From positions 1,538,485 through 1,602,484 of the forward strand of contig NC_134027.1 in NCBI RefSeq assembly GCF_964204645.1: a DNA stretch of 64,000 bases, in the 5' to 3' direction. The DNA is from Tubulanus polymorphus (lineage: Eukaryota > Nemertea > Palaeonemertea > Tubulaniformes > Tubulanidae). The position numbers were made by a program, and so were the translations under genes. Positions 4,043 to 40,600 of the stretch are shown here, piece after piece. Position 1 is the first letter of the stretch. Each line of letters begins with the position of its first letter. The notes beneath the pieces are model-generated. The model saw only the letters and a program-made list of their open reading frames with translations, was not told the origin of the DNA and made no database searches.

Positions 4043-6136
4043 CTATGAATTGTTTGATGTTTGTTGTTTGTGTGAATCAATGATTTCCTGAACTCGAACT
4101 ACGACGCTTTGCATCATATCAAACGTATGCAGCGCCGTCGTGACGATATTCATTTGTTGGTCTTTCGGTAATCGGGGTAAGGGTAAACCTCCGACCGTAA
4201 CGCTCGTTAAATCGGAATCTTTATTTCCGCTCGAGTCGGTCAGGAGCGACGACGCTTCCCCTTTTAAACCGCGCAGTTCGAGCTCGTAATGAGCGCGGGA
4301 CATTTCAATCCCCGTCAACAACGGTTCCATGTAACTCGACGTTAAATTCGCGACGTAATTCCAGATGGCGGTGGCGTTAACGTTTGGGTCGTCGCGCAGC
4401 ACGAGGTATCGTAGCAGATTCAACGCGGCCATGATCGCGTCGGAGTGCTCCAACAGATCGGTCGTCGCTCCGTCCGCGAGCGTGAAGATATTTGAGTAGA
4501 ACCGCGGTAACTTGTCAGCGGAGAAACTGTCGTCGCTGTCGTCACGTCGTAAACTAGAATCGATTTCTTGTTTTAACAGTTGAATAACGAACCCGGTGAA
4601 CCCGGCGTGGTGACTGATGTTTAATAGGTAATAGATGAACGAGTTTTTACCGCGCGAGTCAAATTTCGACAGTTGTTTCGGGAATAATCGTAAAGCCGTC
4701 TGTCGAACGTCTCTCGCTGAGCAGCGAATAACGCACTGCGCGAGCAGACGCACGCACTGAGTGAAATCGTCGTTATCGAGCCAGTCATACGATACAGAAC
4801 CGGGCGCGATCTCCGCGATCAACTGATCCACGATACGAACCCCCTTCGCGACGACGAACGGCTCCGAACGCTGCAACAGCGCCACCGCATACGGTAAACT
4901 ATCGAGGAAGACGAACTCCGCTCGCAGAACGCTCGGATAATTCAACGACGCGTGCATTCGTTCACCGTGGATCAAATAAACGAAACACGCGACACCTAGT
5001 TCAAGGTCGTTCTCTTCGTTACGATATCCACCGGCGTCGTCTGCCGCAGTCACGAGTTCAGACATCCACGTGATAGCGCGATGTAAATCAGCGCACATCG
5101 ACGTGACGTATTTAATCAATAATTCAGACATGACGCGCACGAGTGATTTCGTTCCGTTCTCGTCCACGGTCAAATCTAGAAATACGAGGGGGTGATTGAG
5201 TAATTTCAACAGGTACCGAACGACCAGTTTCCTCTGATCGGGGATCCCCGGTTTCTCGTTACCGCCCGAGTCAGGGATTCCCTGTTTATTGTTACCACCC
5301 GTGACGGGGATTCCCTGTTTACTGTTACCGCTCGCGACGGGGATTCCCGGTTTAGCTTCGTTTACGAACGGTTTCAAAAACGTCAACAGAGCCGATATCA
5401 CGTCGCCGATTCGTAGGATTTTTGGATCGCTATCGAGGATCTTTTTCTCGTTGGTTTCTAAATTCGCCGATACGTCTTTCGACGGTAGTTCGAGGCAGAG
5501 AATGTGAGCGTACAGAGTCTCGAGGGTCATCTCCAGCGAATATTGACGCTTCGTCGGCAGACGTAACAAAACCGTTTGAATCGCGTGCAGCAGTGTTTTA
5601 AATTTAACGTCATCTTTAAAACTGTCGGCTTGTTCGAGCAGCCCGAGTAGTAACTCTTTAGCGTTTCCCGTCCTCGCCAGGTGGACGAGCGCTTGTTCGC
5701 AGAAATCAACGAGCTTCGGTCGTTTTCGATTGTTGCGTTCGGTTAAACACGAACACAACACCGGAACTAAATCCCATCCGATCGATTCCAGGTGCGTTTT
5801 ATTTTCATCGGCGTAAAATGTGGCGTTCAAACGACAGATTTCTCGTTTAGAGATCATCTGCTGGAGGTCGGCGATGAAAATATTTTGACGTTCCTCGCGG
5901 GTCGGATCGGAGCTATGCTCGGAGCATTCCTGTTTCTGATCACCGCACTCCGAGGAAGCTTCCCGTGGCAGATTAGCACACTCGGACGCTTCCCGTGTCG
6001 CAACAAAGGCACGCTCGGTGCATTCCTGTTTCTGATTGGCGCGCTCGGAGGAAGCTTCCCGCATTGTATCGATACACTCAGAGTCGCCCTTCTCAGTGGC
6101 GACAACTAGATCAATATTACAACTAGATTCAGCCAT
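4043..6136 (-). CDS. GLMN: Glomulin (FAP68), single coding exon
   Basis: Glomulin is a HEAT-like all-helical protein that binds the RING domain of RBX1 and blocks E2 access to cullin-RING ligases. The 697-aa frame is uninterrupted. Family blocks seen are ELLLGLLEQ (about residues 161-169), LLNISHHAGFTGFVIQLLKQ, ATDLLEHSDAIMAALNLLRY, and near the C terminus MEPLLTGIEMSRAHYELELR and ALHTFDMMQSVV. It is about 100 aa longer than human GLMN (594 aa) because of two low-complexity insertions: an N-terminal REASSE/QKQEC repeat region (about residues 25-80) and a KQGIP repeat (about 262-301). Codons are more GC/CpG-rich than in neighbouring exons. The start at 6136 has a good context (gaaATGG) and follows a clean acceptor at 6160. 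The CDS lacks introns, unlike the many-exon vertebrate gene. Confidence 0.95.
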   Translation of the reverse strand: MAESSCNIDLVVATEKGDSECIDTMREASSERANQKQECTERAFVATREASECANLPREASSECGDQKQECSEHSSDPTREERQNIFIADLQQMISKREICRLNATFYADENKTHLESIGWDLVPVLCSCLTERNNRKRPKLVDFCEQALVHLARTGNAKELLLGLLEQADSFKDDVKFKTLLHAIQTVLLRLPTKRQYSLEMTLETLYAHILCLELPSKDVSANLETNEKKILDSDPKILRIGDVISALLTFLKPFVNEAKPGIPVASGNSKQGIPVTGGNNKQGIPDSGGNEKPGIPDQRKLVVRYLLKLLNHPLVFLDLTVDENGTKSLVRVMSELLIKYVTSMCADLHRAITWMSELVTAADDAGGYRNEENDLELGVACFVYLIHGERMHASLNYPSVLRAEFVFLDSLPYAVALLQRSEPFVVAKGVRIVDQLIAEIAPGSVSYDWLDNDDFTQCVRLLAQCVIRCSARDVRQTALRLFPKQLSKFDSRGKNSFIYYLLNISHHAGFTGFVIQLLKQEIDSSLRRDDSDDSFSADKLPRFYSNIFTLADGATTDLLEHSDAIMAALNLLRYLVLRDDPNVNATAIWNYVANLTSSYMEPLLTGIEMSRAHYELELRGLKGEASSLLTDSSGNKDSDLTSVTVGGLPLPRLPKDQQMNIVTTALHTFDMMQSVVVRVQEIIDSHKQQTSNNS
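5237..5356. repeat. 33-bp in-frame tandem repeat inside GLMN
   Basis: Four units encode variants of K(P/Q)GIP(V/D)xxGN on the minus strand, giving an 11-residue period. The length is a multiple of three, so the reading frame is kept. The insertion falls between two HEAT-like blocks of glomulin. Confidence 0.9.
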
Positions 6137-6159
6137 TTCGAGTTTGGAATAATTTACAG

Positions 6160-6535
6160 TCTGTAAACGATAAAAACATCAATAACAAACTCTTCAGTTC
6201 AGCGCAACGCTAAAAAACAAGACACCCCCTCCTTTTCTAAAACAAAAACCTTGCGAAAAAAATCTTCTTAAGAAAACAATGTAATGGTACAATGTTTTTA
6301 AATGGATTAGTGAAGGACTGATTTTAACCGGTATTGAACTCGATACCTCTAAAATTTCCATTAAAAGTATATCACAATAATGCAAGCAGATTGAATTGAA
6401 CTTGATTGAGAAGTTTCTTCAATTTTTTGGTTCTCTCTGAATTTTCAACCAGATGAAAAACTTGATGTGATTCAAAATAACGGTATAAATCGAAGATCGA
6501 ATACTTGACCTACTATAAAAAATCCAATACTCACC
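6160..6535 (-). other. GLMN: Probable 5'UTR intron of GLMN
   Basis: On the minus strand an acceptor (TCGTTTACAG) ends 24 nt upstream of the GLMN ATG. A consensus donor (TTTCG|GTGAGT) lies with its exon ending at 6535. Together they predict a noncoding first exon above 6535 and an intron at about 6161-6534. The 5' end of that exon cannot be placed; it probably lies between 6.7 and 6.9 kb. Confidence 0.6.
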
Positions 6536-9149: not shown

Positions 9150-9720
9150 TGCAAAATTGTAATAGATGGGTACATATTAATTATGTATAAAAATGGATAT
9201 TTCACACAAACAATAAAATTCCGTGACTCCCTCAAGATGCAGGACGGTTGGCAGTTCTGAAAGGTTGAGGGATGCAAAATCATTCAAAGAGAAACATCTC
9301 TTTTTTGCGGCCTCATGTCCTTCATGTGATGATAAATAGGATGAAAACCTAAATAGAGCACGGCCACGAGCTCCGATGAGAGCAAAAGGGATTTTTAGGT
9401 TATTGTGACGTGTGTAGGTACGTCAACACTACATAAATGGGTTGGAGGAATGTGGTGACGCATAAACACGTCACAATCAGTGAATTCCAAGCCATGTCTG
9501 GTCAAGGGTCTGCAAACGTTACTAAAGAGTAAAACAATATAAAAGGACACCGGGAGACATCAAAAGACTGGAAAGAGAACAGCCGGGGAGCGAGAACACA
9601 TAGAAATAATAAAAGCATATTATTCACTGGAGAAGATTCTTCTGTTCATTTTCTATCACCAGATAATTTATACATTATAACCGAGGTATGCGTATATTCC
9701 GTAGAAACCTTGTTATATCG
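9150..9720 (+). promoter_or_regulatory. Promoter-like block copy 1 (CRE-type motifs, TATA, 5'UTR exon)
   Basis: Four TGACG-type half sites lie within about 70 bp (9406, 9419, 9456, 9467), then TATAAAAGG at about 9538 and an A/G-rich leader. The leader appears to end in a splice donor (CCGAG|GTATGC) near 9685. Near-identical copies occur at about 14.14-14.72 kb and 17.87-18.24 kb. I read it as a promoter plus noncoding first exon for the RRM exon family. An LTR-like element, with TATA plus a downstream AATAAAA, is the alternative. Confidence 0.5.
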
Positions 9721-9832: not shown

Positions 9833-11263
9833 ATCAAAATGCTTTGGATTCATTGTAGCTGCTGTTGATACAGCAGAAATGATAATCAAGGAAAACCCAC
9901 ACCATATAGATGGTGTTGTTGTGGATTTTGAAATGGCGAAAGAGGTAAGCTATCATACTGTGTTATTCAATCTCTGGTAATGCAATCCAAGGTATGTTCC
10001 ATAGATATAAAAAAAACAATATAGCGGTATTTTGTCAGGTAATTAAAGGGGTGCTTCAGCATTACTAAGAGACATTCACAACTCCTAAACTGCAGTAACT
10101 CATCCTGAGTTCTAAATATTGTTATTGTAGATCAAAATGCTTTGGATTCATTGTAGCTGCTGCGGATATAGCAGAACAAATAATCCAGCAGAACCCACAC
10201 CATATAGATGGTGTGGGTGTGATTTTTCGAAATCGCGAAAGAGGTAAGCCATCATGCTGTGTTATTCAAACTCTGGTAATGCAATGCAAGGTATGCTCCA
10301 TAAAGAATATTTCCATTTATTATATATGTTAGGGCCCCGAGTAAGATATAGATAAACAATATAGCGGTATTTTGTCAGGTAATTAAAGGGGTGCTTCAGC
10401 ATTACTAAGAGACATTCACAACTCCTAAACTGCAGTAACTCATCCTGAGTTCTAAATATTGTTATTGTAGATCAAAATGCTTTGGATTCATTGTAGCTGC
10501 TGCGGATATAGCAGAACAAATAATCCAGCAGAACCCACACCATATAGATGGTGTGGGTGTGATTTTTCGAAATCGCGAAAGAGGTAAGCCATCATGCTGT
10601 GTTATTCAAACTCTGGTAATGCAATGCAAGGTATGCTCCATAAAGAATATTTCCATTTATTATATATGTTAGGGCCCCGAGTAAGATATAGATAAACAAT
10701 ATAGCGGTATTTTGTCAGGTAATTAAAGGGGTGCTTCAGCATTACTAAGAGACATTCACAACTCCTAAACTGCAGTAACTCATCCTGAGTTCTAAATATT
10801 GTTATTGTAGATCAAAATGCTACGGATTTATCGATGTGCCACAAGATGTAGGAGAACAAATAATGAAGAACAACCCACACCATATAGATGGTGTGGGTGT
10901 GATTTTTGAAATCACGAAAGAGGTAAGCTATCATGCTGTGTTATTCAATCTCTGGTAATGCAATCCAAGGTATGTTCTATAAAGAATATATACCTTGAAA
11001 TATTGGGGGCCCCGAGTAAGATACAAAAAAACAATATAGCGGTATTTTGTCAGGTAATTAAAGGGGTGCTTCAGCATTACTAAGAGACATTCACAACTCC
11101 TAAACTGCAGTAACTCATCCTGAGTTCTAAATATATATATACATACTATTATCAATGTAGGTCAAAATGCTACGGATTCGTAGTAGCCCCAACAAATGAA
11201 GCTGAAAAGATTTTAAATGAAAACCCACATCTTATAGATGGTGTGGGTGCTAATTTTTGCTAG
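9833..11263 (+). CDS. R2 block A: five tandem exons encoding the second half of an RRM
   Basis: Exons at 9833-9944, 10131-10243, 10471-10583, 10811-10922 and 11161-11263. Each follows a near-identical intron end (TTGTTATTGTAG), starts with one base completing a codon, and encodes S-K-C-(F/Y)-G-F followed by a helix and NPHHIDGV, matching RRM RNP1, helix 2 and strand 4. Copies 1 and 4 end in phase 0 at GAG|GTAAGC. Copies 2 and 3 are one base longer and end in phase 1 (IFRNRER). Copy 5 has no donor and stops in frame (TAG, 11261-11263). RNP1 is degenerate, with Cys for Gly at position 2 and no final aromatic. Units recur every 300-350 bp. The exons are supported by splice sites and homology; their use in a transcript is not. 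Confidence 0.65.
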
Positions 11264-11318
11264 GAACGGGACGACGTTCAGCTGTGTTTTATTCATAATT
11301 TTCTCCTTCATTCCACAG

Positions 11319-13657
11319 ATGAAGTTATATGCAAAAAAACAACAGGGAAAAGTTTAAAAAAATATTTCAATAACCATGAAATAAAAAAGCTTATGTGGTA
11401 AAAGATAAAAAAAACCAGTAAGTTTATGATGTTTTTATTTCAAATGTGTTTAATGTTCATAATGAAGGAATAGAGGCGTCATCAGGAATTTAAGGTTGTA
11501 AGGTGTATATGTTTATCTAAGGGATGACGTTCAGCTGTGTTTTATTCATAATTTTCTCCTTCATTCCACAGATGGAACGTAATCCTAATGTCAAATTAAT
11601 TGCAAAGAAAATTGCCAAAAAAACTACAGGCAGTACGTTGAAAAAATATTTTAATAACAAAAAAATTTAAAAAGCGTATATAATAAAAGATAGAAAAAAC
11701 CAGTAAGTTCATGATCTTTTTATTTAAAATGTGTTTAATTTTCCTAATAAAGGAATAAAGGCTCCATCAGGAATTTAAGGTTGTAAGGTGTATATGTTTA
11801 TCTAAGGGATGACGTTCAGCTGTGTTTTATTCATAATTTTCACCTTCATTCCACAGATGGAACGTAATGTCAAATTAATTGCAAAGAAACTTGCAAAAAA
11901 AACTACAGGCAGTACGTTGAAAAAATATTTTAATAACAAAAAAATTAAAAAAGCGTATATAATAAAAGATAGAAAAAACCAGTAAGTTTATGATCTTTTT
12001 ATTTAAAATGTGTTTAATTTTCCTAATAAAGGAATAAAGGCTCCATCAGGAATTTAAGGTTGTAAGGTGTATATGTTTATCTAAGGGATGACGTTCAGCT
12101 GTGTTTTATTCATAATTTTCTCCTTCATTCCACAGATGGAACGTAATCCTAATGTCAAATTAATTGCAAAGAAAATTGCCAAAAAAACTACAGGCAGTAC
12201 GTTGAAAAAATATTTTAATAACAAAAAAATTTAAAAAGCGTATATAATAAAAGATAGAAAAAACCAGTAAGTTTATGATCTTTTTATTTAAAATGTGTTT
12301 AATTTTCCTAATAAAGGAATAAAGGCTCCATCAGGAATTTAAGGTTGTAAGGTGTATATGTTTATCTAAGGGATGACGTTCAGCTGTGTTTTATTCATAA
12401 TTTTCACCTTCATTCCACAGATGGAACGTAATCCTAATGTCAAATTAATTGCAAAGAAAATTGCCAAAAAAACTACAGGCAGTACGTTGAAAAAATATTT
12501 TAATAACAAAAAAATTAAAAAAGCGTATGTAATAAAAGATAGAAAAAACCAGTAAGTTTATGATCTTTTTATTTAAATGTTTTTAATTTTCCTAATAAAG
12601 GAATAAAGGCTCCATCAGGAATTTAAGGTTGTAAGGTGTATATGTTTATCTAAGGGATGACGATTAATTATGTATTTATCTACTATTATCTATCGTTAAA
12701 AACAAAAGCTTTTTTTACATTTGATCTTTAAGGAATTGAATTTTATTGTAAATCCCTGAATTCTCTTACAGATACCAATGAAGCAAAGGCTAAGAAGTGC
12801 AACCAGATGGAGAAATGTAAGTTTTGAATTTTCTCCTTCATTCCACAGATGGAACATAAAGGAATAAAGGCTCCATCAGAATTTAAGGTTGTAAGGTGTA
12901 TATGTTTATCTAAGGGATGACGTTCAGCTGTGTTTTATTCATAATTTTCTCCTTCATTCCACAGATGGAACGTAATCCTAATGTAAAATTAATTGGAAAG
13001 AAAATTGCCAAAAAAACTACTGGCAGTTCCTTGAAAAAATATTTTAAAAACAAAAAAATTAAAAAAGCGTATGTAATAAAAGATAGAAAAAACCAGTAAG
13101 TTTATGATCTTTTTATTTAAATGTTTTTAATTTTCCTAATAAAGGAATAAAGGCGTCATCAGGAATTTAAGGTTGTAAGGTGTATATGTTTATCTAAGGG
13201 ATGACGTTTAGCTGTGTTTTATTCATAATTTTCTCCTTCATTCCACAGATGGAACGTAATCCTAATGTAAAATTAATTGGAAAGAAAATTGCCAAAAAAA
13301 CTACTGGCAGTTCCTTGAAAAAATATTTTAAAAACAAAAAAATTAAAAAAGCGTATGTAATAAAAGATAGAAAAAACCAGTAAGTTTATGATCTTTTTAT
13401 TTAAATGTTTTTAATTTTCCTAATAAAGGAATAAAGGCTCCATCAGGAATTTAAGGTTGTAAGGTGTATATGTTTATCTAAGGGATGACGTTCAGCTGTG
13501 TTTTATTCATAATTTTCACCTTCATTCCACAGATGGAACGTAATATCAAATTAATTGCAAAGAACCTTGCAAAAAAAACTACAGGCAGTACGTTGAAAAA
13601 ATATTTTAATAACAAAAAAATTAAAAAAGCGTATATAATAAAAGATAGAAAAAACCA
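11319..13657 (+). CDS. R1 block: eight tandem exons encoding the first half of an RRM
   Basis: Exons at 11319-11417 (degenerate), 11572-11702, 11857-11981, 12136-12266, 12421-12551, 12965-13095, 13249-13379 and 13533-13657. Each follows TTCATTCCACAG, opens with ATGGAACGT and ends ...AACCA|GTAAGT in phase 2. That is exactly the phase R2 exons need (CA+A gives Gln, then Ser-Lys). The product begins MERNPNVKLIAKKIAKK and runs through TLKKYF to KKAYVIKDRKNQ, the layout of RRM strand 1 (RNP2), helix 1 and strands 2-3; the RNP2 aromatic is missing. Copies 11572 and 12136 carry an in-frame TAA. Copies 11857 and 13533 lack six bases in frame. Copies 12965 and 13249 are identical. If used first, the ATG could be the start codon. 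Confidence 0.65.
12772..12816 (+). CDS. Short basic tail/linker exon, copy A
   Basis: A 45-nt exon lies between TTCTCTTACAG and GTAAGT. Read in phase 0 it is Arg-rich (IPMKQRLRSATRWRN). Read after a phase-1 R2 exon it is Lys-rich. A truncated R1-type acceptor follows directly at about 12849, showing recombination inside the array. Confidence 0.45.
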
Positions 13658-13878
13658 GTAAGTTTATGATCTTTTTATTTCAAATGTGTTTAATTTTCCT
13701 AATAAAGGAATAGAGGCGTCATCAGGAATTTAAGGTTGTAAGGTGTATATGTTTATCTAAGGGATGACGATTAATTATGTATTTATCTACTATTATCTAT
13801 CGTTAAAAACAAAAGCTATTTTTACATTTGATCTTTAAGGAATTGAATTTTATTGTAAATCCCTGAATTCTCTTACAG

Positions 13879-13938
13879 ATCCCGGACAGAACGCCACTAA
13901 AAGAAAGGCTAAGAAGTGCTACAAGGAGACGGAGAAAT
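13879..13938 (+). CDS. Short basic tail/linker exon, copy B
   Basis: A 60-nt homologue of copy A with the same flanking introns. Phase 0 gives PDRTPLKERLRSATRRRRN; phase 1 gives a Lys/Cys-rich peptide. A third copy lies on the minus strand at 19498-19554. Which frame is used depends on which R2 exon precedes it. Confidence 0.45.
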
Positions 13939-14139
13939 GTAAGTTTTGAATTTTCTCCTTCATTCCACAGATGGATGGAACATACTGTTTACAATTCAAA
14001 CTGAAATATTTTGACCTTTTATTTGTGGTATATTTCACTAAATTTTAAGTATTAGTGAACTTTTTATTTGAAATATCATAATCTATTGAAAATATTTCGA
14101 GCAATAACTAGACATGCGTAAAGAATACCCCTTGGCCAG

Positions 14140-14720
14140 TGAGAGAGAGAGAGACAGAATGCAAAATTGTAATAGCTGGGTACATATTAATAAAGTATAA
14201 AAATGGATATTTCGCACAAAAATAAAATTCCGTGACTCTCTCAAGATGCAGGACGGTTGGCAGTTCTGAAAGGTTGAGGGATGCAAAATCATTCAAAGAG
14301 AAACATCTCTTTTTTGCATGGCCACGAGCTCCGATGAGTGCAAAAGGGATTTTTAGGCTACTGTGACGTGTGTAGGTACGTCAACACTACATAAATGGGT
14401 TGGAGGAATGTGGTGACGCATAAACACGTCACAATCAGTGAATTCCAAGCCATGTCTGGTCAAGGGTCTGCAAACGTTAGTAAAGAGTAAAACAATATAA
14501 AAGGACACCGGGAGACATCAAAAGACTGGAAAGAGAACAGCCGGGGAGCGAGAACACATAGAAATAATAAAAGCATATTATTCACTGGAGAAGATTCTTC
14601 TAGCGTTCATTTTCTTCTATCACCAGATAATTTATACATTATAACCGAAATACGGTATGCGTATTGCGAATATAACGTAGAAACCTTGTTATATCCGAAT
14701 ATCTAATACGACAGGCAATT
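14140..14720 (+). promoter_or_regulatory. Promoter-like block copy 2
   Basis: This repeats the 9.15-9.72 kb block, including TGACGTG at about 14363, TACGTCA, and TATAAAAGG at about 14497. Its leader ends near a TACG|GTATGC donor. It separates the R1 block from R2 block B. Confidence 0.5.
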
Positions 14721-14806
14721 AAAGGGGTGCTTCAGCATTACTAAGAGACATTCACAACTCCTAAACTGCAGTAACTCATCCTGAGTTCTAAATATTGTTA
14801 TTGTAG

Positions 14807-16481
14807 ATCAAAATGCTTTGGATTCATTGTAGCTGCTGCGGATATAGCAGAACAAATAATCAAGCAGAACCCACACCATATAGATGGTGTGGGTGTGATT
14901 TTTCGAAATCGCGAAAGAGGTAAGCCATCATGCTGTGTTATTCAAACTCTGGTAATGCAATGCAAGGTATGCTCCATAAAGAATATTTCCATTTATTATA
15001 AATGTTAGGGCCCCGAGTAAGATATAGATAAACAATATAGCGGTATTTTGTCAGGTAATTAAAGGGGTGCTTCAGCATTACTAAGAGACATTCACAACTC
15101 CTAAACTGCAGTAACTCATCCCGAGTTCTAAATATTGTTATTGTAGATCAAACTGCTATGGATTCATAAATGCTCCTGTTGATGTAGCAGAACAGATAAT
15201 CAAGGAAAACCCACACCATATAGATGGTGTGGGTGTGATTTTTGAAATCACAAAAGAGGTAAGCCATCATGCTGTGTTATTGCAATCCAAGGTATGCTCC
15301 AGAAATATACCGTTATTATAAATGTAGGGGATTCATGATCTGCCCCTTTCTGATGTAGATTTCATACCTATTTATATTTGTAAAAATTGTACTAGGCAAA
15401 TTCTCAAACCAACCCCCGGGTCCTGCTCCTGATGACGCCTATGTGGAAATAAAAACTGACATCACTTTAGTATTTTATACAACTTAACTTCTTATTTCTA
15501 CAATACACACTAGCACGCTACATATAATTCCATGTATTCTAACCGAGTATGCCAATGTGGCATTTTCTTTATAACAACAGATCCTCCTTTATTCGGTAAC
15601 CAAAAACCTGTATGTCTCCTGGAGAAAATACTACACACTTTGAGGTTAATCCTTTTAATCAAAAGTTTACTAAACCTACAACGTTTCACCTTTTTCCTAA
15701 CAGCCATCATCTGGTGTATGGGATTCATTTCAATCACATCCGTGAATTTGATATCAATAAATACTCAATACGTTCTAATACGATATTAATATTGTTATTG
15801 TAGGTCAAAATGCTACGGATTTATCGATGTGCCAAAAGATGTAGGAGCAGAAATAATGAAGAACAACCCACACCATATAGATGGTGTGGTGATTTTTCGA
15901 AATCGCGAAAGAGGTAAGCTATCATGCTGTGTTATTGCAATCCAAGGTATGCTCCAGAAATATACCGTTATTATAAATGTAAGGGCCCCTAGTAAGATAT
16001 AAACAAGAAAATTAATTCAAAAAAAATTATTTGACGCCTGCAAAAAAAATGTAGAATTTCTGGGATAAGCTTATGTGGAATTGCAAATTTGAAATCGAAA
16101 ATTTAAGAAATTTGGGGAATTATGAGATTTGGCGATTGGGTAGATGATACAGTTCTTCGACGTGGTTTAATTGTTTTTATTGAAAATTCTCAATAATTGA
16201 TTACGAACTTGCGACCGACTTCATTTACTTATGCCTCTAAGCGGGTCTGCAACTTCATTGCCTCCATGGGCCCTAAGGCAATTAAAGGGGTGCTTCAGCA
16301 TTACTAAGAGACATTCACAACTCCTAAACTGCAGTAACTCATCCCGAGTTCTAAATATTGTTATTGTAGATCAAAATGCTTTGGATTCGTAATCGCTGCT
16401 GTTGATACAGCAGAAATGATAATCAAGGAAAACCCACACCATATAGATGGTGTTGTTGTGGATTTTGAAATGGCGAAAGAG
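14807..16481 (+). CDS. R2 block B: four intact second-half RRM exons
   Basis: Exons at 14807-14919 (phase-1 end), 15147-15258 (SNCYGFINAPVDVAEQ, phase 0), 15804-15913 (SKCYGFIDVPKDVGAE, phase 1) and 16370-16481 (SKCFGFVIAAVDTAEM, phase 0). All are open and end at GAG|GTAAGC. A fifth copy at 16665 (SKYFGFIVEAHDVAVF) runs into unrelated repeat DNA after about 45 nt and is truncated. This block lies downstream of the R1 block, so R1 to R2 splicing in the correct order is possible here. Confidence 0.65.
15350..15800. repeat. Unknown repeat, left copy of an inverted pair
   Basis: This segment, between the second and third exons of R2 block B, reappears in inverted orientation at about 20941-21400. 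Each copy carries a matching 75-aa frame (minus 15510-15737; plus 21001-21234) with few differences. I do not recognise the peptide. The pair suggests an inverted segmental duplication or two insertions of one element. Confidence 0.7.
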
Positions 16482-16699
16482 GTAAGCTATCATGCTGTGT
16501 TATTCAATCTCTGGTAATGCAATCCAAGGTATGTTCCAGATATAAAAAAACAATATAGCGGTATTTTGTCAGGTAATTAAAGGGGTGCTTCAGCATTACT
16601 AAGAGACATTCACAACTCCTAAACTGCAGTAACTCATCCTGAGTTCTAAATATTGTTATTGTAGATCAAAATACTTTGGTTTCATTGTTGAGGCACACG

Positions 16700-17400
16700 A
16701 TGTGGCTGTATTTAGTAGGGGCAAGGGGAAATTTTGGAAAAGTGGCTTTTTGCAAATATCATTATATCCTCCTCACCAAAGAATATAAAGGTTAGTTTTT
16801 CACAAAGAGCAATATTCACAAAGAGGCATTAGTATTTTTTCCAATGGCAAAGTATTTTTTCAACAATTTTTGTGGTTTTTTGCATGGACTATGATGCCAT
16901 TTGCATTTAATTTTTTCTAATGTTCCTTTTCAATGTTCCTTTTTGATTGAGTGCCAGGACATGCCTAAGAGACTACTGATAGAACGACACGTAAAGCAAG
17001 ATCGCGGATCCAGTAAAAGTTTGAATGCTTCACCAAATTATTCTATTTGAAGTAACTATCAAAATTTTGAGATGCCAATTACCAAAGGCGCCATCTTTGA
17101 ACATAAACAAACGGTATCTGGGTAACGAAAAACAACCGCCACATTTTGATTGAGTGCCAAAGAAAACTGTAAAGCAAGATCGCAGATAATTTTGACTGCT
17201 AAAATATTAAGGTTTGTTCTTCACAAAGAGGCATAAGGAATCAACCCCAATGGCAAAGCATTTTCAACAATTTTTGTTGTTTTTTGGCGTGCGAGACTGT
17301 GGACTATGAATTTTGATGCCATTTGCATTCTAATGTTCCTTTTTCAACACGCCTAGCCTGGATTTTTACAGGATCGACACACTTCGCCAGAAAACGACAT
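16700..17400. repeat. Repeated flank sequence right of R2 block B
   Basis: Blocks such as TTCACAAAGAGGCA, CAACAATTTTTGT and GTAAAGCAAGATCGC occur twice here (about 16795-17010 and 17130-17340). They recur in reverse at about 19980 and 22440-22560. They resemble sequence that flanks the Ala-rich exon of the minus-strand unit, without its coding part. Confidence 0.6.
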
Positions 17401-17869: not shown

Positions 17870-18240
17870 TGCATGTGACGTATGTGTCCACGTAGGAAAA
17901 CCTAAATATAGCACAACCACGAGCTCCGCTGAGTGCAGAATGTATTTTTAGGTTATTGTGATGCGTGTAAGTACATCAACACTCCATACATGGGTTGGAG
18001 GAATGTTGTGACGCATAAATACCTCACAATCCGTGAATTCTAAGCTATGTGTGGTCAAGGGTCTGCACGAGCTACTAAAGAGTAAAACAATATAAAAGGA
18101 CACCGGGAGACATCAAAAGACTGGAAAGAGAACAGCCGGGGAGCGAGAACACATAGAAATAATAAAAGCATATTATTCACTGGAGAAGATTCTTCTAGCG
18201 TTCATTTTCTATGACCAGATAATTTAAACTACGGTATATG
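17870..18240 (+). promoter_or_regulatory. Promoter-like block copy 3 (diverged)
   Basis: The TATA region (TATAAAAGGA at 18091) and leader are nearly identical to copies 1 and 2, but several of the upstream TGACG-type motifs are mutated. No R2 exon follows within 1 kb, so it is probably an orphan copy. Confidence 0.45.
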
Positions 18241-19497: not shown

Positions 19498-19992
19498 GTT
19501 CAGTCTCCTTGTAGCACTTCTTAGCCTTTCTTTTAGTGGCGTTCTGTCTGGGATCTGTAAGAAAATTCAGGGATTTACAATAAAATTCAATTCCTTAAAG
19601 ATCAAGTGTAAAAATAGCTTTTGTTTTTAACGAGAGATAATGGTAGATAAATACATAATTAATCGATTTTGAAATTTATGCTGTAATGAGTGATGGATTA
19701 TTGAAATATTAACGATTGAAAAGGAATTTTCACAATATGCAATGAGCTCGTGTAGACGCTACTTAATGCGAACACAGGTTTTCGTCGAACCCGGGTTTCA
19801 ATGTACATGAGCTAGAGTAGACGTGGTATTACAGATCAATTGACAACACGTTTGGGAAGAATAAAAGGTTAAAAATTAGAGCAATTCAATTAAAGGAAAG
19901 GAATAAGGTAGGAAGAAGAGATGAGGCAGTGATCAGAGGGAAATGTGGGTGAAATGTTGAAGGGTTTTAATGCCTCTTTGTGAAAAACTAAC

Positions 19993-20091
19993 CTTTAAAT
20001 TTTCAGCAGCAAAATTATCCACGATCTTGCCAACCACAGGTGCTGCTGCTGCTACCAGTGCTGCTGGTTGCGCCGCTGCGGCTGGTGTTTT
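19993..20091 (-). CDS. Ala-rich exon of the minus-strand RRM unit
   Basis: A 99-nt exon lies between TGTGAACAG and GTTAGT. It is open for 33 codons in phase 0, with a run of Ala, Pro and Val and then KIVDNFAAENLK. Ala- or Gly-rich tails are common after hnRNP-type RRMs. No intact plus-strand copy was found. Confidence 0.5.
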
Positions 20092-20940
20092 CTGTTCACA
20101 AAAAAATTAATCAAAAATTTTACTTAGGAAAAAATAAATGTTAATCGGGAACAGGCTTTCTCGAAACTTGAAGAGTGAGTGATTTCGGGTCCAAGTACAA
20201 TTCACATGAGTATGAGTATTAGTGCATCTTTCAAGTGAGTGATTTGGCTCACGTTAGCTCTTCATTGACAAGCTGACCAGTCAGTCAATGAAGTCAACAT
20301 TGACCAGTGTACAGGTCAAACTACAACTGATGATAACTACTTTAATTCAAACCACAAGAAAACTAGATTTTGCAGCCAAAAAATTCAGACAAAATACCGC
20401 TATATTGTTTATCTATATCTTACTCGGGCCCCCAATAATAACAGTATATATTCTTTATGGAGCATACCTTGGATTGCATTACCAGAGATTGAATAACACA
20501 GAATGATGGCTTACCTCTTATGCTAATTCGAATGTTACATGCACCCCATCTATATGGTGTGGGTTGTTCCTCATTATTTGTTCTGCTATATCCGCAGCAG
20601 CCATTGAAAATCCAAAGTATTTTGATCTACAATTACAATATTTAGAACTCAGGATGAGTTACTGCAGTTTAGGAGTTGTGAATGTCTCTTAGTAATGCTG
20701 AAGCACCCCTTTAATTACCTGACAAAATACCGCTTTATTGTTTTTTTATATCTTACTAGGGGCCCTTACATTTATAATAACGGTATATTTCTGGAGCATA
20801 CCTTGGATTGCAGTAACACAGCATGATAGCTTACCTCTTTCGCGATTTCGAAAAATCACCACACCATCTATATGGTGTGGGTTGTTCCTCATTATTCTTT
20901 CTGCTACATCCGCAGCAGCTACAATCCGTAGCATTTTGAT

Positions 20941-21400: not shown

Positions 21401-22189
21401 GGGCAGATCATGAATCTTGGATAAAGGCATGAAAAGTGCAGAAATTATCGCTGGTTTGATCAGAAAAAGCCGTCACTCAAACGCCATAAATATTTATTAG
21501 GACCGAGTCTCTTAGATATGGGGGCAAGGGTAGTAATTTGTCAGTTATTACCATGGACTCAGGTTGAGGATTTACCCCTTGGGCCACTTGACCCAGTCTA
21601 TAAAATGGGCACAGGTCTTATCCATGTGCAAATTACCCTTTTTGGCAAGGTTTGGTCCCACCTGTGGAAATCAACCTGAAATAAACCACATTAGCAGGGT
21701 CTTTTACAATCCAGGGTCATAGCTAGCATTTGAATTTCAGGGGGGGGGGGCAGAGAAACCCGAAAAATGGCAGTTCTATAGGATATAATAATATTTGCAA
21801 AAAGCCACTTTTCTAAAATTTCCCCTAGCCCCTACTAATTACAGCCCGGCAATCCACTCATTTTTTGTACAGTCAACCCCTGATAAACTGCTATCAGGTG
21901 TGATACAAGTGTTCGTAACATCTTACAACCTAAAATTCCTGATGACGCCTTTATTCCTTTATTAGGAAAATTAAACACATTTTAAATAAAAAGATCATAA
22001 ACTTACTGGTTTTTTCTATCTTTTATTACATACGCTTTTTTAATTTTTTTGTTATTAAAATATTTTTTCAGCGTACTGCCTGTAGTTTTTTTTGGCAATT
22101 TTCTTTGCAATTAATTTTACATTAGGATTACGTTCCATCTGTGGAATGAAGGAAAAAATTATGAATAAAACACAGCTGAACGTCATCCC

Positions 22190-22390
22190 GGTGCGATTCA
22201 AGAATAGGGGACTATAGTAATATATGTAGTGATAGTTATCAATTAAGTAATAATATTAGTAATTGATAATGATGATATATAATGATAGTAATGTACATAG
22301 TAATTAATGATAATTAGGGAACTAAACCTAACCCTAACCCTAATCCTAACCCTAATCCTAACCACTAGTCCCCTATTCTTGAATCATACC
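22190..22390. mobile_element. MITE with telomere-like core, 201 bp
   Basis: Its ends are inverted repeats: GATTCAAGAATAGGGGACTA at 22195 and the reverse complement at 22364-22385, extendable to GGTnnGATTC. The interior contains about six (C)CCTAAC/CCTAATCC-type telomere-like units at 22325-22362. It sits immediately upstream of the minus-strand R1 exon. Confidence 0.75.
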
Positions 22391-27300: not shown

Positions 27301-30300
27301 AGACAGAGTATATACTCATTAGCTGGAGGAGATACAGATACAATGAGACAGGCTCGAACTTTACTGTGGAATGAATTACACGATATTTCTGTTAAAGTTG
27401 GTAAGTTACGTGCATCAAATACAGGCTGCCAAGTGGCTTTACATTTCCTACATCTCCCTGCAAAAAACATTGCTGTTGAATACTGCGTGATTATTCAATA
27501 TGTTTTTGTTATTATAAGTTGTAATTCCGGGACAATACGATTACATTTCTTCATCTCCGGCGGAATTTCATCATCAATTACTCAACAATCCGATAAAAAG
27601 TTCATCGGACCCATGTTTCCAATGGCAACCGATTATACATTCGTATATCGAGGTAAGACGACGCAGTGTGAAATTTAAGAGCGATCGATTTGAAAACTTG
27701 TTCGTTTTTTCGTGTTTTTAAGGACGGCGTGAGTATGGCTGAAGATAACAGTATCGTAATAAACTCTGTGATTGATTCTAGTTGTCAGATCGGTTCTAAT
27801 ACAGCAGTATTAAACTGTCAGTTAACAGGCTGCGACGTTACTATCGGTAAACAGTGTCTTGTATCTGGAATACAATCTGAACAACTTCAGGTACTAATCA
27901 TAATCATATAGCTTCAGCGTTAGGTCACCAAACAAACAAACAACTATATTCATCCTTCAAATGTCTATAAACAGTCAACCAAGATATACTGCGCCCACAT
28001 CGCTGCAGAAGAATTTTGGCGGTATATAGAGTATGGCGGTATATCGGGGGTGTTTTACTATGTATTTGTATAGAGATGTACATCGAGAAAACCTGGCAGT
28101 AGGTGGGGGTGGCGGTTAATGGGAGGGCGGTATATCGGGGGTGTTTTACTATGTATTTGTATAGAGATGTACATCGAGAAAACCTGGCAGTAGGTGGGGG
28201 TGGCGGTTAATGGGAGGGCGGTATATCGGGGGTGTTTTACTATGTATTTGTATAGAGATGTACATCGAGAAAACCTGGCAGTAGGTGGGGGTGGCGGTTA
28301 ATGGGAGGGCGGTATATCGGGGGTGTTTTACTATGTATTTGTATAGAGATGTACATCGAGAAAACCTGGCAGTAGGTGGGGGTGGCGGTTAATGGGAGGG
28401 CGGTATATCGGGGGTGTTTTACTATGTATTTGTATAGAGATGTACATCGAGAAAACCTGGCAGTAGGTGGGGGTGGCGGTTAATGGGAGGGCGGTATATC
28501 GGGGGTGTTTTACTATGTATTTGTATAGAGATGTACATCGAGAAAACCTGGCAGTAGGTGGGGGTGGCGGTTAATGAGAGGGCAGAATATCGGGCTTGAC
28601 TACACATGAAATCGCAAATATAGTGTTCGATGTCTTAAGCGAATTGGTTATAACTGTTTGCTAATAATTATTTTACTGAAGACGAGAAAAGAGAAATGTT
28701 TGTTAATTTCTGCCCAACTCTGATGTTTGCGTATTTGTAGAATTTGGAATCATTAGATGTTGTAGATGCGACAGTTTTACAATCGCATACAGTGAAATTA
28801 CCGATGTTTACAGGAGGTGTCACCAGTATTATTACAGCGATAGGATTGATGGATAGCTTAAAGGTTTGTTGGAGAAACATCTGTCAAGCTATTGAAGTAA
28901 AATATACATCAGTTAATTTACTTATCATAAATTGAACAATCATTTCTATATTTAGGGTAATGTGTTAGATGGAACCTATTGTAACCGTCCATGGACAGAA
29001 CTATTTACGAGAACAGGAATAACTGTTGGTGATCTCTGGGATATCGATTTAGTAAGTTCAACAGTAAATAGACCATATCTATGATCAATCCATCTCGTCG
29101 ATAAATCAATGTTTTTTGTTGTTTTTTTATCGCAGCCACAAGAATTAAAGAGATTAGAAAATGCGCGGTTATTCCCTGTGTCGCATATGCATCATTCAGT
29201 AGGACTATCAGAGATATTGTGGTTACAAGGCGTTTCTAGAAACAGTGCAGATATGTTACACAGGTCTGTCATGTTTATTATTCAGATATCATCGCGTCAA
29301 ATTCAACTCAGGTTTTAAGTTCGTCTTATTTGAAATATTGCAGGTGGAGATCATCGTGGAGGCTTTCTTTCAATGACATTTGGAGTTCACTGAGTTTGAG
29401 TAAGGATTTTGAAATGTGTCAGAATCTTGGATTCCTCGTCAGTAAGAACCTCATGCGTGATACACTGTTGGGAGGCAAAGACTTGAGATTATTGCAGCTT
29501 TATAGAACCGCTTGTCTTCACGGATTCCACAGAGAAATTCTTCTTGAATTAGATGAGAGTAGGCATTGATTCTCTACTATAACTGATAAACTTATATTAA
29601 TCTCAATATTTCAGAGTTAATGTGCAAAATGAACAGTTGATGATTTAACAATTCATTCGCCGGACAGTTTTGACTTCACTTCATCGTCACAGTAACCAAA
29701 ATGTTGTCGTTTTTATTTCTCTGATGATGAAGTTTCGTTAAAACTTTGAAACTGTCGATTTTGCTCATTATAACGTATATTGTTTATACTGATAAATGAT
29801 TGGTTTATTTTGTCAGTTGGTATCGAGTGTAATTCACCTGGTATTGCCGCCCGAACATTTGCTAATATAGCGGAGGTTTTAGCGTGTATGGCTGATGGTA
29901 AAGGTGGTCTGAGAAGTGGACCCGCTGGCAATCATAGATGGTCAAAAGCTTTCCAAATATTAGAGGTAAGAATGACCCGCTTTTACTCCGTGTTGTAATG
30001 ATAACATTAAAATCCCACATCAGGAAAGATGAGTTCGAAATATTTCCATGATTTATTAAATATATTGAACTAGTCTATGATAATCGGCTAGTAATATTCT
30101 CGTGAAGTTGACTATTAGGATACAATTTTCCTGTTTCATCACGTAGAAAGGTGATATAATACTGGGCGTGAAAGCTATGGCTGAAGAGAGACAGAACTGG
30201 TTGAAACAGCCGAGTTTATTAGTGAGAGCAGCGCGACATTACGAGGGAGCAGCTCAAATACTGGTCAGACATGCTACAGCTACTGCTAGAAAGGTACATT

Positions 30301-37649: not shown

Positions 37650-40600
37650 TTACCCTGAATTCCTAAACTTTGTCACCAGTTCGTCAAACATCGTTTTTAG
37701 ATCCTGAAAAATAGACGATACATGTTGTATTCAGAACTGGGTCAAGTAACTGTGGAACTGGGTCTAGTAACTGTGGAAGTGGGTCCAGTAACTGTGAATC
37801 AGGGTTCAGTAACTGTGGATCAGGGTTCAGTAACTGTGGAACTGGGTCCAGTAACTGTGGATCAGGGTTCAGTAACTGTGGAACTGGGTCCAGTAACTGT
37901 GGATCAGGGTTCAGTAACTGTGGAACTGGGTCCAGTAACTGTGGATCAGGGTTCAGTTACTGTGGAACTGGGTCCAGTAACTGTGGATCAGGGTTCAGTA
38001 ACTGTGAATCAGGGTTCAGTAACTGTGGAACTGGGTCCAGTAACTGTGGATCAGGGTTCAGTAACTGTGATCAGGGTTCAGTAACTGTGGAACTGGGTCC
38101 AGTTACTGTGGATCAGGGTTCAGTAACTGTGGAACTGGGTCCAGTAACTGTGGATCAGGGTTCAGTTACTGTGGAACTGGGTCCAGTAACTGTGGATCAG
38201 GGTTCAGTAACTGTGAATCAGGGTTCAGTAACTGTGGAACTGGGTCCAGTAACTGTGAATCAGGGTTCAGTAACTGTGGAACTGGGTCCAGTAACTGTGG
38301 AACTTGTTGGATAGAAATTTTATCTTACCTTCTGTGAGTCTGATACTGAAGCTGGCGCTGTGTGTGGACGGAAACCACTTTTGGCCGACACTGAAAAATC
38401 ACATACGATAATTTAGGAAAATACAGAAAAATCAAATGAAACGTTATTCGATGTAAATTGTAACTAACGAGTAAATCTCGGTCGTCGTCTCGTTTCATCA
38501 GATGTAAACGGACGTTCAGCCAATAACTGAGCAGCTAAAACATCATCATCATCATCATTCTTCTCCTCATCGTCTGTGAAATTACCACCATCGTCATAAT
38601 CATCGATATCCACCTCTATATCCATACTTAAACCGCCGTTGTCACGGTTACTCGAATACGACCTCGACCTCGTCGGCAGACGGAATGATAATCGATCGGT
38701 TTTTTTCGGATGTCGAGTCGTTGAGACACGCGTTAGATGTCCGAGCGCTGGTTGCTCCGGCGACGGTGACAATGACTCTTGTTCAGTCGATGTATCGATC
38801 GTTTCTTTCGATTGTGTGACAACATCTGATTAGAAAAATATCAAATTTATAGTTAAATATATTTGAATGCATCGGTTATAAACTGACAAAACTTTAGTTT
38901 CAAAGAAAACCAACTCAGGCTGAACAGGGACGGATCCAGGCTGGAAGAATGGAGTTTTTGAAAATTTAGGTACATCTTCATGGAATTTCAGTGCATAATA
39001 GACAAAGATCAGTACAGAGGATATGAAGTCGATTTTCATAGGGCACGTGGTCAGAAAAAGGAGAGCGTGAACCCTCAAATCCCTTCTGAATCCGCCACTG
39101 CTGAACAAAACTCTATATCTAGAGAAAACCTACTCAGGCTCAGAGTAAAACCACAGTCATGAAAATACATGGTGAATATCGTGTATTCATTATTATTATC
39201 AGGAGCCAGTTGCACAGTTGACAGAGCTGAATATAGCTCCAAAGTTTATCTTACCCTTTACAGAATTGGTTTCAATTAAACATTAAATATTACTCAAAAT
39301 AGACTCAAATCTAGACTAAGAACTTTGGTGGAACCAGCTCAAAAATATACGTGTATTCATCAATAAATAGATGGTGATACAATCGAACACTGTGAAAACC
39401 TGTCAATCAATCTCAGCGTAGATCATAATGAATAACTGTACTTTACAACTATTATATTTCAAAAGTTTGTTTATCTCGCAGTTTCAAGATTTATCTAAAT
39501 CCCAATATTGTAACTGTTGAAGAAGATAAGATTTAGATAAATCTTAAAATTGTCAGATAAATAAACTAAACTAAATATCATCAATTGTGCAATTATTCAT
39601 TATCTCAGAACCCGTTTTTACAGTTGAGCATTGTGTAAAAGGCTTAGACTGAGAATTTCTCGAGGTGCTCAAAATACAAGTGAAATCACAGCACGAGGAC
39701 ATGCATTGAACTTCAGGCAGCAAGTGAAAATTTGAAAACATTCTACCATCATCTGATAATCCAGAATCATTATCCTCAGTAGTTAACCAGTTCCCACATC
39801 CTGTTACACCATACAAAATCAATCAATACAAAATACGCCAGTAATCAATCAACTTTTCATTTTGAAAACAAACATCGAGGAGGTAAGTACCTTGAGCAAG
39901 TTGAGGAGCAATATTGAGATCAGTTTTCTCAGTTTTGACTGCATCAGTTTCATCTAATAAAACATCACCGGAAACCTTTTCTGTAACTATTACTTGCGGC
40001 GTATCATCAAAAGTAACAGTACTAGATTGACCCTGAAGAGAGATAGAGCATCAGACGTGAATACAAATAAATAAATCATGAAATAGGGATGATGGCCCCT
40101 TTTACTTATATGATTGATTATCGGTAGATTTGATTAGATCTGGTATCCCTTACAAACCCACTACACTTGCCAGGAACTAAACTAGGGGTTTCGATTTTGA
40201 AAGATTGTGTGCGTTAATTTTTGTCTGCAGCCTGATTTAATATAAATCTACAGATAACATAAGATATAGGCTGATATTCACTTCACTCACTGATGCAAGT
40301 TGAACGGATGAATTCCTCTTCTTGTCAAAGAACATCATTTGCGTGCGTCCACCATTAGGTGTCTTGTTATTATTTGTAGGTTTAGCGGGTACAGGTTCTG
40401 ATTTGACGCCAGCGCTTGCCGCAGCTCCAACGCGACGTGGTTTAATATCTACAGCAGGTTTACGCGCTGTCGTTGCTGTTCTTTTTTCTGTATAATTGAA
40501 TCATAAATCGTATTGACTATCATTTCAGATTTGGCCATAGATATCTCTAATACCGGTAGATGGTTTTAAGATAGAGCATTAAACATGAGAAGAAAGAAAA

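Follow-up and report, generated by a model that had tools for sequence, protein, structure and literature searches.

Two clusters of tandemly arrayed RRM half-exons, putative copies of hnRNP A/B exons, in Tubulanus polymorphus

Tandem copies of two exon types, each encoding part of an RNA recognition motif (RRM), are arrayed within a 64,000-nt stretch of the Tubulanus polymorphus genome (contig NC_134027.1, positions 1,538,485 to 1,602,484 of the forward strand; the whole stretch is referred to as the window, and feature coordinates are positions within it). Exons of the first type, R1, span RRM strands 1 to 3, and those of the second, R2, run from RNP1 to strand 4. A second, diverged cluster lies on the same chromosome (C3:27.0975-27.1144 Mb), 25.5 Mb from the window cluster. 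The best explanation, held with slightly less than even confidence, is that both clusters are duplicates of RRM1 exons, that the second cluster joins one R1, one R2, and a short third exon (R3) in a message, and that the window cluster is its partly decayed sister. An initial annotation of the window had proposed a Dscam-like, combinatorial splicing of R1 and R2 within a single RNA-binding fold; the finding is richer than first stated because it now includes a parent gene, R3, and the second cluster.

An exon survey confirmed the eight R1 and ten R2 copies initially annotated on the plus strand of the window, which are ordered between 9.8 and 16.8 kb as block A (five R2), eight R1 that enclose one R3, another R3, and block B (five R2). 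The exons of this strand are as follows.

9833..9944, plus strand: open R2 exon of block A, phase-0 exit
10131..10243, plus strand: open R2 exon of block A, phase-1 exit
10471..10583, plus strand: open R2 exon of block A, phase-1 exit
10811..10922, plus strand: open R2 exon of block A, phase-0 exit
11161..11272, plus strand: broken R2 copy of block A, with a stop and no donor detected; its end is placed at the default length of 112 nt
11319..11417, plus strand: degenerate R1 copy of 99 nt with stops, AG and GT present
11572..11702, plus strand: R1 copy with one in-frame TAA
11857..11981, plus strand: R1 exon, open, phase-2 donor
12136..12266, plus strand: R1 copy with one in-frame TAA
12421..12551, plus strand: R1 exon, open
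12772..12816, plus strand: R3 exon, phase 0 to 0 (IPMKQRLRSATRWRN), within the R1 block
12965..13095, plus strand: R1 exon, open
13249..13379, plus strand: R1 exon, open, same peptide as the 12965 copy
13533..13657, plus strand: R1 exon, open
13879..13938, plus strand: R3 exon, phase 0 to 0 (IPDRTPLKERLRSATRRRRN)
14807..14919, plus strand: open R2 exon of block B, phase-1 exit
15147..15258, plus strand: open R2 exon of block B, phase-0 exit
15804..15913, plus strand: open R2 exon of block B, phase-1 exit, without the usual upstream element before it
16370..16481, plus strand: open R2 exon of block B, phase-0 exit
16665..16790, plus strand: R2 copy, block B, similar in its first part only, then a stop

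Splice sites are present as AG and GT in eight of eight plus-strand R1, and as AG in ten of ten and a GT donor in nine of ten R2; five of the eight R1 and eight of the ten R2 are open, the latter divided between exits in phase 0 (four) and phase 1 (four). Open R1 begin at AG|ATG and end at CA|GTAAGT, and open R2 begin at AG|ATC and exit at GTAAGC, so that the terminal CA of R1 and the first A of R2 form a glutamine codon at the joint. The earlier statement that all R1 donors are phase 2 agrees with the length of seven of the eight copies, the 11319 copy deviating, and the accompanying claim that any open R1 can join any open downstream R2 was upheld, since open R1 leave and R2 enter in phase 2. 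Across both clusters, 17 of 22 scored R1 have the phase-2 length and 15 of 29 R2 measure 112 nt. Because of the exon phases, joining R1 to R1 or R2 to R2 breaks the frame, so a productive message would hold one copy of each. The arrays show the marks of a mutually exclusive cluster, namely tandem homologous exons of similar length and equal phase that fall out of frame if doubled. The estimate of about 20 RRM variants stands as a count of junctions (five open R1 by four open block B R2), but these yield 16 distinct peptides, eight of them exiting in phase 0, as the 12965 and 13249 copies encode an identical peptide and the five open R1 therefore amount to four proteins.

The proposal that R1 and R2 are two halves of one RRM was borne out by domain and profile matches. 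Pfam RRM_1 was matched by nine of nine joined peptides at E values up to 1 (best 4.2e-5; for member 1 alone, E was 0.014 and the score 15.7 bits, below the cut-off of 20.7), and a nine-row profile of the joined peptides matched hnRNP A2/B1 in the PDB at 1.7e-8. By the usual definitions of the RNP1 and RNP2 motifs, the RNP1 aromatic pair is retained in most R2 (SKCFGFI, SMKYGFI) and lost, for example, in SLKHGLV, and the RNP2 aromatic residue is present in cluster-2 R1 (LYFRGL). A genome search with the two-RRM region of hnRNP A1 found an hnRNP A/B gene on contig C6 whose first RRM1 exon starts at AG|ATGGAA and leaves in phase 2 at AA|GTACGT, and whose second RRM1 exon (121 nt) starts at TTATTGTAG|ATC just ahead of RNP1 and ends in phase 0 at CGAGAG|GTGAGC. 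The boundaries and phases of R1 and R2 are those of this gene of the same genome; at other RRM loci, the frame runs uninterrupted through RNP1 in three of three scored (L009-L011; L012 unscored). A joined window peptide aligned with the parent RRM1 over residues 1-79 of 81 (34% identity, 82 aligned columns, E 2e-9 in a single comparison), and a cluster-2 joined peptide aligned over residues 20-69 of 73. Given the shared boundaries and phases, the peptide alignment, and the hnRNP A2/B1 profile match, R1 and R2 are interpreted as duplicates of the exon pair for RRM1 in an hnRNP A/B gene. Proteins of this type further have a second RRM and a glycine-rich tail; the two-RRM query matched neither cluster at E 1e-5, a search that did not aim at a weaker RRM2 and in which neither end of the gene was located.

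When the whole assembly was searched with R1, R2, and the conserved element preceding R2 (match counts of at least 28, at least 23, at least 34, and at least 22), the matches listed fell only in the two clusters. The second cluster holds 14 R1 copies (seven open, six broken, and one, without an acceptor-ATG, unscored), 17 R2 copies (11 open with a phase-0 exit), and three R3 copies (two open). Its plus strand carries four open R1, then two open R2 and R3, then nine further R2 (six open with a phase-0 exit); its minus strand carries R1 copies followed by one open R2 and R3, and, as a separate set, broken R1 ahead of four R2 (two open). The order R1-R2-R3 with open exons was found only in this cluster. 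Between R3 and the long R2 array, leader-like repeated units, several ending in GTAAGTTCAATTTAATC, were noted by eye (G000:C3:27107200-27108340, equivalent to L001:7200-8340); these are possible promoters or first exons.

R3 and an inverted set, the latter running along the minus strand from 22.1 to 19.5 kb as R1, R2, R2, R4, and R3, with R1 and both R2 broken, are additions to the earlier account of the window.

22007..22138, minus strand: R1 copy, inverted, frameshifted
20835..20940, minus strand: R2 copy, inverted, broken
20515..20626, minus strand: R2 copy, inverted, one stop
19993..20091, minus strand: R4 candidate, open and alanine-rich, flanked by AG and GT as judged by eye
19498..19554, minus strand: open R3 exon that follows the inverted R1 and R2 copies

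A six-frame comparison showed R3 and intron elements to be common to both clusters, among the matches listed. In a genome search with the R3 region, three of the 36 matches listed fell in the window and one in the second cluster, the other 32 being flanking intron only, which is repeated in the genome; for the R4 candidate, its own locus was the only genome match among those listed. Over the 12-codon core of R3, three comparisons gave 9, 5, and 10 synonymous and 2, 2, and 2 non-synonymous codon differences. No R3 counterpart was noticed in the C6 parent gene, although no search for one was run.

According to the favored explanation, the RRM1 exon pair of an hnRNP A/B gene would have been duplicated, R1 with the start codon and strands 1 to 3 and R2 with RNP1 to strand 4; the partial gene copy would have acquired R3, a short basic exon, and the RRM exons would then have multiplied in tandem in two clusters of one chromosome. 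A cluster-2 transcript would join one R1, one R2, and then R3 (phases 0 to 2, 2 to 0, and 0 to 0), and the product would be a small single-RRM protein with interchangeable halves. Frame logic combined with decay of mis-spliced messages could enforce the use of one copy each, much as in U2AF1 (discussed below). The window cluster would be a sister locus, rearranged and partly decayed, in which several copies still bear the mark of selection. The exons and their phases, the homology, the second cluster, and the selection statistics are observed, whereas transcription of the arrays, their alternative use, and RNA binding are inferred.

The comparison of synonymous and non-synonymous change among copies, which the initial annotation had recommended, pointed to purifying selection in both clusters, with a strong case in cluster 2 and a marginal one in the window. 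Codon models fitted to open, distinct copies only (five of six for R3) gave omega below 1 in seven of seven sets; the values, each followed by twice the log-likelihood difference from omega 1 (2 x delta lnL), were 0.10 and 22.4 for cluster-2 R1 (five sequences), 0.25 and 37.2 for cluster-2 R2 (nine sequences), 0.16 and 5.8 for window R1 (four sequences), 0.40 and 4.7 for window R2 (four sequences), and 0.012 and 56.6 for R3 (five copies), the last a rough value from a nearly saturated tree. Omega is somewhat lowered because only open copies entered, and a low omega reflects the history of the copies, not their present-day use. In a random-substitution simulation that treated copies as independent, although they had been chosen for being open, the chance of all open cluster-2 copies staying open under neutrality was 0.03 for R1 and 0.0002 for R2.

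Further evidence comes from the divergence of exons relative to the intron directly upstream, which ahead of R2 contains a conserved element.

14712..14806, plus strand: conserved element of about 90 nt directly ahead of R2, one of 10 window sites

All 22 matches listed for this element fall in the two clusters, and its 18-nt core has 10 window matches against 0 in 100 shuffles, a count that sets the arrays beyond chance. When divergence was measured per 30-nt bin in the 90 nt before the exon and in the exon, window R2 (seven of 12 copies) differed by 0 to 1.6% upstream and 5.6 to 20.8% in the exon, and cluster-2 R2 (eight of 17 copies) by 3 to 6% and 6 to 22%; cluster-2 R1 (seven of 14 copies) differed by 0 to 1% in the last 60 nt, 13% in the preceding 30 nt, and 4 to 13% in the exon. 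Exon divergence exceeded upstream divergence in eight of eight hand-picked disjoint pairs with unlike exons (Fisher p 0.02 to 6e-9), with third positions also showing the contrast in seven of seven scored, and in most within-cluster open pairs of window R1 (8/10), window R2 (5/6), and cluster-2 R2 (47/55), as well as in all between-cluster pairs (35/35 and 44/44). Pairs that lack the contrast mostly have near-identical exons or involve the cluster-2 R1 that comes first, which differs in its upstream sequence. Under plain neutral decay, exon and intron would be expected to change at equal rates, which does not give this pattern; two readings of it remain: strong constraint on the upstream element, or introns that may be homogenised by conversion while exon differences are held by selection. 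Conversion of introns with selective retention of exon differences is described for the gibbon L/M opsins (PMC3213168), and within-cluster intron similarity, small in size, is reported for known mutually exclusive clusters (PMC6071210).

Despite these results, a number of observations weigh against the favored explanation. In the window, R1 lack the RNP2 aromatic residue (LIAKKI, against LFIGGL in the parent), which may weaken RNA binding; three of the eight plus-strand R1 are broken, and two of the four open block B R2 (14807, 15804) exit in phase 1 and the others (15147, 16370) in phase 0. Among the exons found on the window plus strand, no R3 follows block B, and as the phase 0 to 0 R3 lie upstream of that block, an R1-R2-R3 message cannot arise from this strand in cis; nor can block A, upstream of every R1, follow an R1 in cis. 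With the inverted set included, four of nine R1 and four of 12 R2 in the window are broken and four more R2 exit in phase 1, and the chance of all open window copies staying open under neutrality is 0.31 (R1) and 0.21 (R2). Cluster 2 has its own defects: six of 14 R1 are broken besides the unscored one, one of the seven open R1 has the acceptor GG, and six of 17 R2 lack a usable phase-0 exit. The divergence contrast is small for window R1 (seven of nine copies; upstream 1.0-3.8%, exon 1.0-7.3%), and in cluster-2 R1 it is present in 12 of 21 pairs and absent from nine. Finally, in a search for docking/selector pairing, the duplex energies of R1-downstream with R2-upstream intron ends did not improve on those of shuffles (p 0.36 to 0.99 in six pairs).

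A scan with the R2 element over four stretches, compared with 400 single-window shuffles, left three within range and the cluster-2 minus stretch below it (-34.1 versus -29.2); in a rescan of three of the four stretches with a coarser step and whole-region shuffles, the best duplex was reached by 38/60, 18/20, and 17/20 shuffles, and the cluster-2 minus signal was rejected as support for docking because the whole-region shuffles do not bear it out. Separately, the NPHHIDG-coding stretch of R2 can form a hairpin of up to 11 bp (e.g., in 15147-15258 and G000:C3:27110505-27110616), and in 14 of the 19 copies analyzed this fold exceeds synonymous recodings in stability (p below 0.05); the hairpin was set aside as evidence, as the stem register differs between clusters (by eye) and the copies are not independent.

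The Dscam-like design originally proposed retains in its favor the phases, the RRM halves, the intron positions shared with an hnRNP A/B RRM1, and selection statistics that disfavor pure decay (marginally in the window, clearly in cluster 2), and has against it the lack of a complete R1-R2-R3 order on the window plus strand, the exit of half the open block B R2 in another phase, the failure to find docking pairing, the broken R1, and the upstream position of block A. Such a mechanism appears to fit the second cluster better than the window, combinatorial use being plausible in the former and less likely in the latter. That two half-domain exon arrays are spliced combinatorially into a repertoire of RRM surfaces, with selection separating the exons while splice regions stay alike, is considered rather unlikely.

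A TATA-bearing dispersed repeat lies ahead of block B.

14299..14660, plus strand: the repeat preceding block B, with further copies at 9341-9640 and 17894-18193

By eye, the repeat contains a TATAAAAGG box and inverted GTGACG/CGTCAC motifs. Genome-wide, 40 matches were scored of 95 candidates, many spanning only query positions 22-206, and reading frames in two regions around other copies (L005, L006) revealed no clear host gene; as it is dispersed over the genome, the repeat was set aside as the gene's own promoter.

Three rival explanations bear on this evidence. Birth-and-death tandem duplication via unequal crossing-over, in which one R1 and one R2 per cluster are used (now or formerly), the rest are decaying passengers, and the selection signal is ancestry, is a serious contender whose probability nevertheless falls well below even. 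It would account for the broken copies in both clusters (10 of 22 scored R1, nine of 29 R2), for a window in which selection is marginal and openness compatible with neutrality, and for the fast turnover of the array that is evident from two adjacent R2 units (10036-10335 and 10376-10675) identical over 300 nt; it sits less easily with exons that differ more than the adjacent upstream intron in most pairs, and with the retention in cluster 2 of seven open R1 and 11 open phase-0 R2, whose low omega has strong likelihood support.

An improbable alternative is a tandem family of small separate genes with a promoter per R1 or R2 block, so that diversity would arise by promoter choice, not exon choice. 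The TATA-bearing repeat does precede both window R2 blocks, leader-like units stand (by eye) ahead of the cluster-2 R1 array and its long R2 array, and both clusters hold partial gene sets on both strands, yet the window repeat, being dispersed, need not be this gene's promoter, and a methionine occurs within the first three codons of only six of 29 R2, all in cluster 2. Least probable, and regarded as quite unlikely, is a non-functional relic in which neither cluster is expressed and the pattern stems from intron gene conversion plus old exon divergence: the many broken copies would be expected of it, but the open cluster-2 arrays would not, nor would an R3 core whose changes are mostly synonymous and whose omega, if rough, is so low. 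Set beside these, the duplication of RRM1 exons into a cluster that joins one R1, one R2, and R3, with the window cluster as its partly decayed sister, remains the explanation preferred here.

Elsewhere in the window, a 711-residue open frame on the minus strand (4043-6178) matches the YAP/Alf4/glomulin family (PF08568, 4.7e-44). A short telomere-like CTAACC repeat run (22322-22363) lies away from the contig end, and tandem repeats occur at 28035-28594 (91 bp, 6.2 copies, 99%) and, inside a plus-strand open frame of 199 codons, at 37734-38303 (21 bp, 27 copies). An Rfam mir-957 match, the only one in 8-24 kb, was taken as chance (22.7 bits versus a cut-off of 66).

Use of the arrays, if it occurs, would mean that a single RNA-binding fold is built from interchangeable halves, a natural experiment in how strands 1-3 and RNP1-strand 4 each contribute to RRM specificity. 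The excess of exon over intron divergence, together with a parent gene of single exons, opens the origin of the arrays to direct testing. The two clusters together, even should the one in the window be in decay, illustrate how both exons of one domain can be hit by tandem exon duplication.

The variable exons of Dscam encode immunoglobulin domains. In an open-access literature search, none of the listed titles and abstract openings concerned arrays of RRM half-exons. The closest comparisons are with the following systems. The C6 hnRNP A/B gene (cf. human hnRNP A1 and A2/B1) has the same RRM1 exon pair, intron positions, and phases, but was matched with one copy per RRM1 exon and a second RRM, whereas the clusters have arrays and R3 instead. 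In U2AF1, exons Ab and 3 are tandem homologous, mutually exclusive, and encode part of the RRM-like UHM, with inclusion of both or neither leading to stop codons (PMC5224494); the likeness lies in tandem homologous exons for part of an RRM-like fold, and the difference in that U2AF1 has two copies of one exon, whereas here both RRM exons are multiplied, in two clusters, and exclusive use would follow from phase. Drosophila Dscam shares homologous exon arrays, several per locus, and combinatorial potential, but its arrays are larger (48, 33, and 12 exons) and docking/selector pairing is reported for them (PMC6071210), a pairing that was searched for here and not found. The shortened Dscam of Chelicerata has tandem 5-prime cassettes of two or four exons, each behind promoters (PMC4835542); tandem 5-prime coding cassettes may likewise each supply a variable N-terminal part, although R1 has a splice acceptor directly before its ATG. 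Muscle myosin heavy chain, with mutually exclusive exon clusters in many invertebrates including lophotrochozoans (PMC3912159), demonstrates such clusters outside Dscam in a motor protein, whereas R1 and R2 encode an RNA-binding domain. In summary, the arrays described herein are tandem homologous exons, a known kind, in a new variant.

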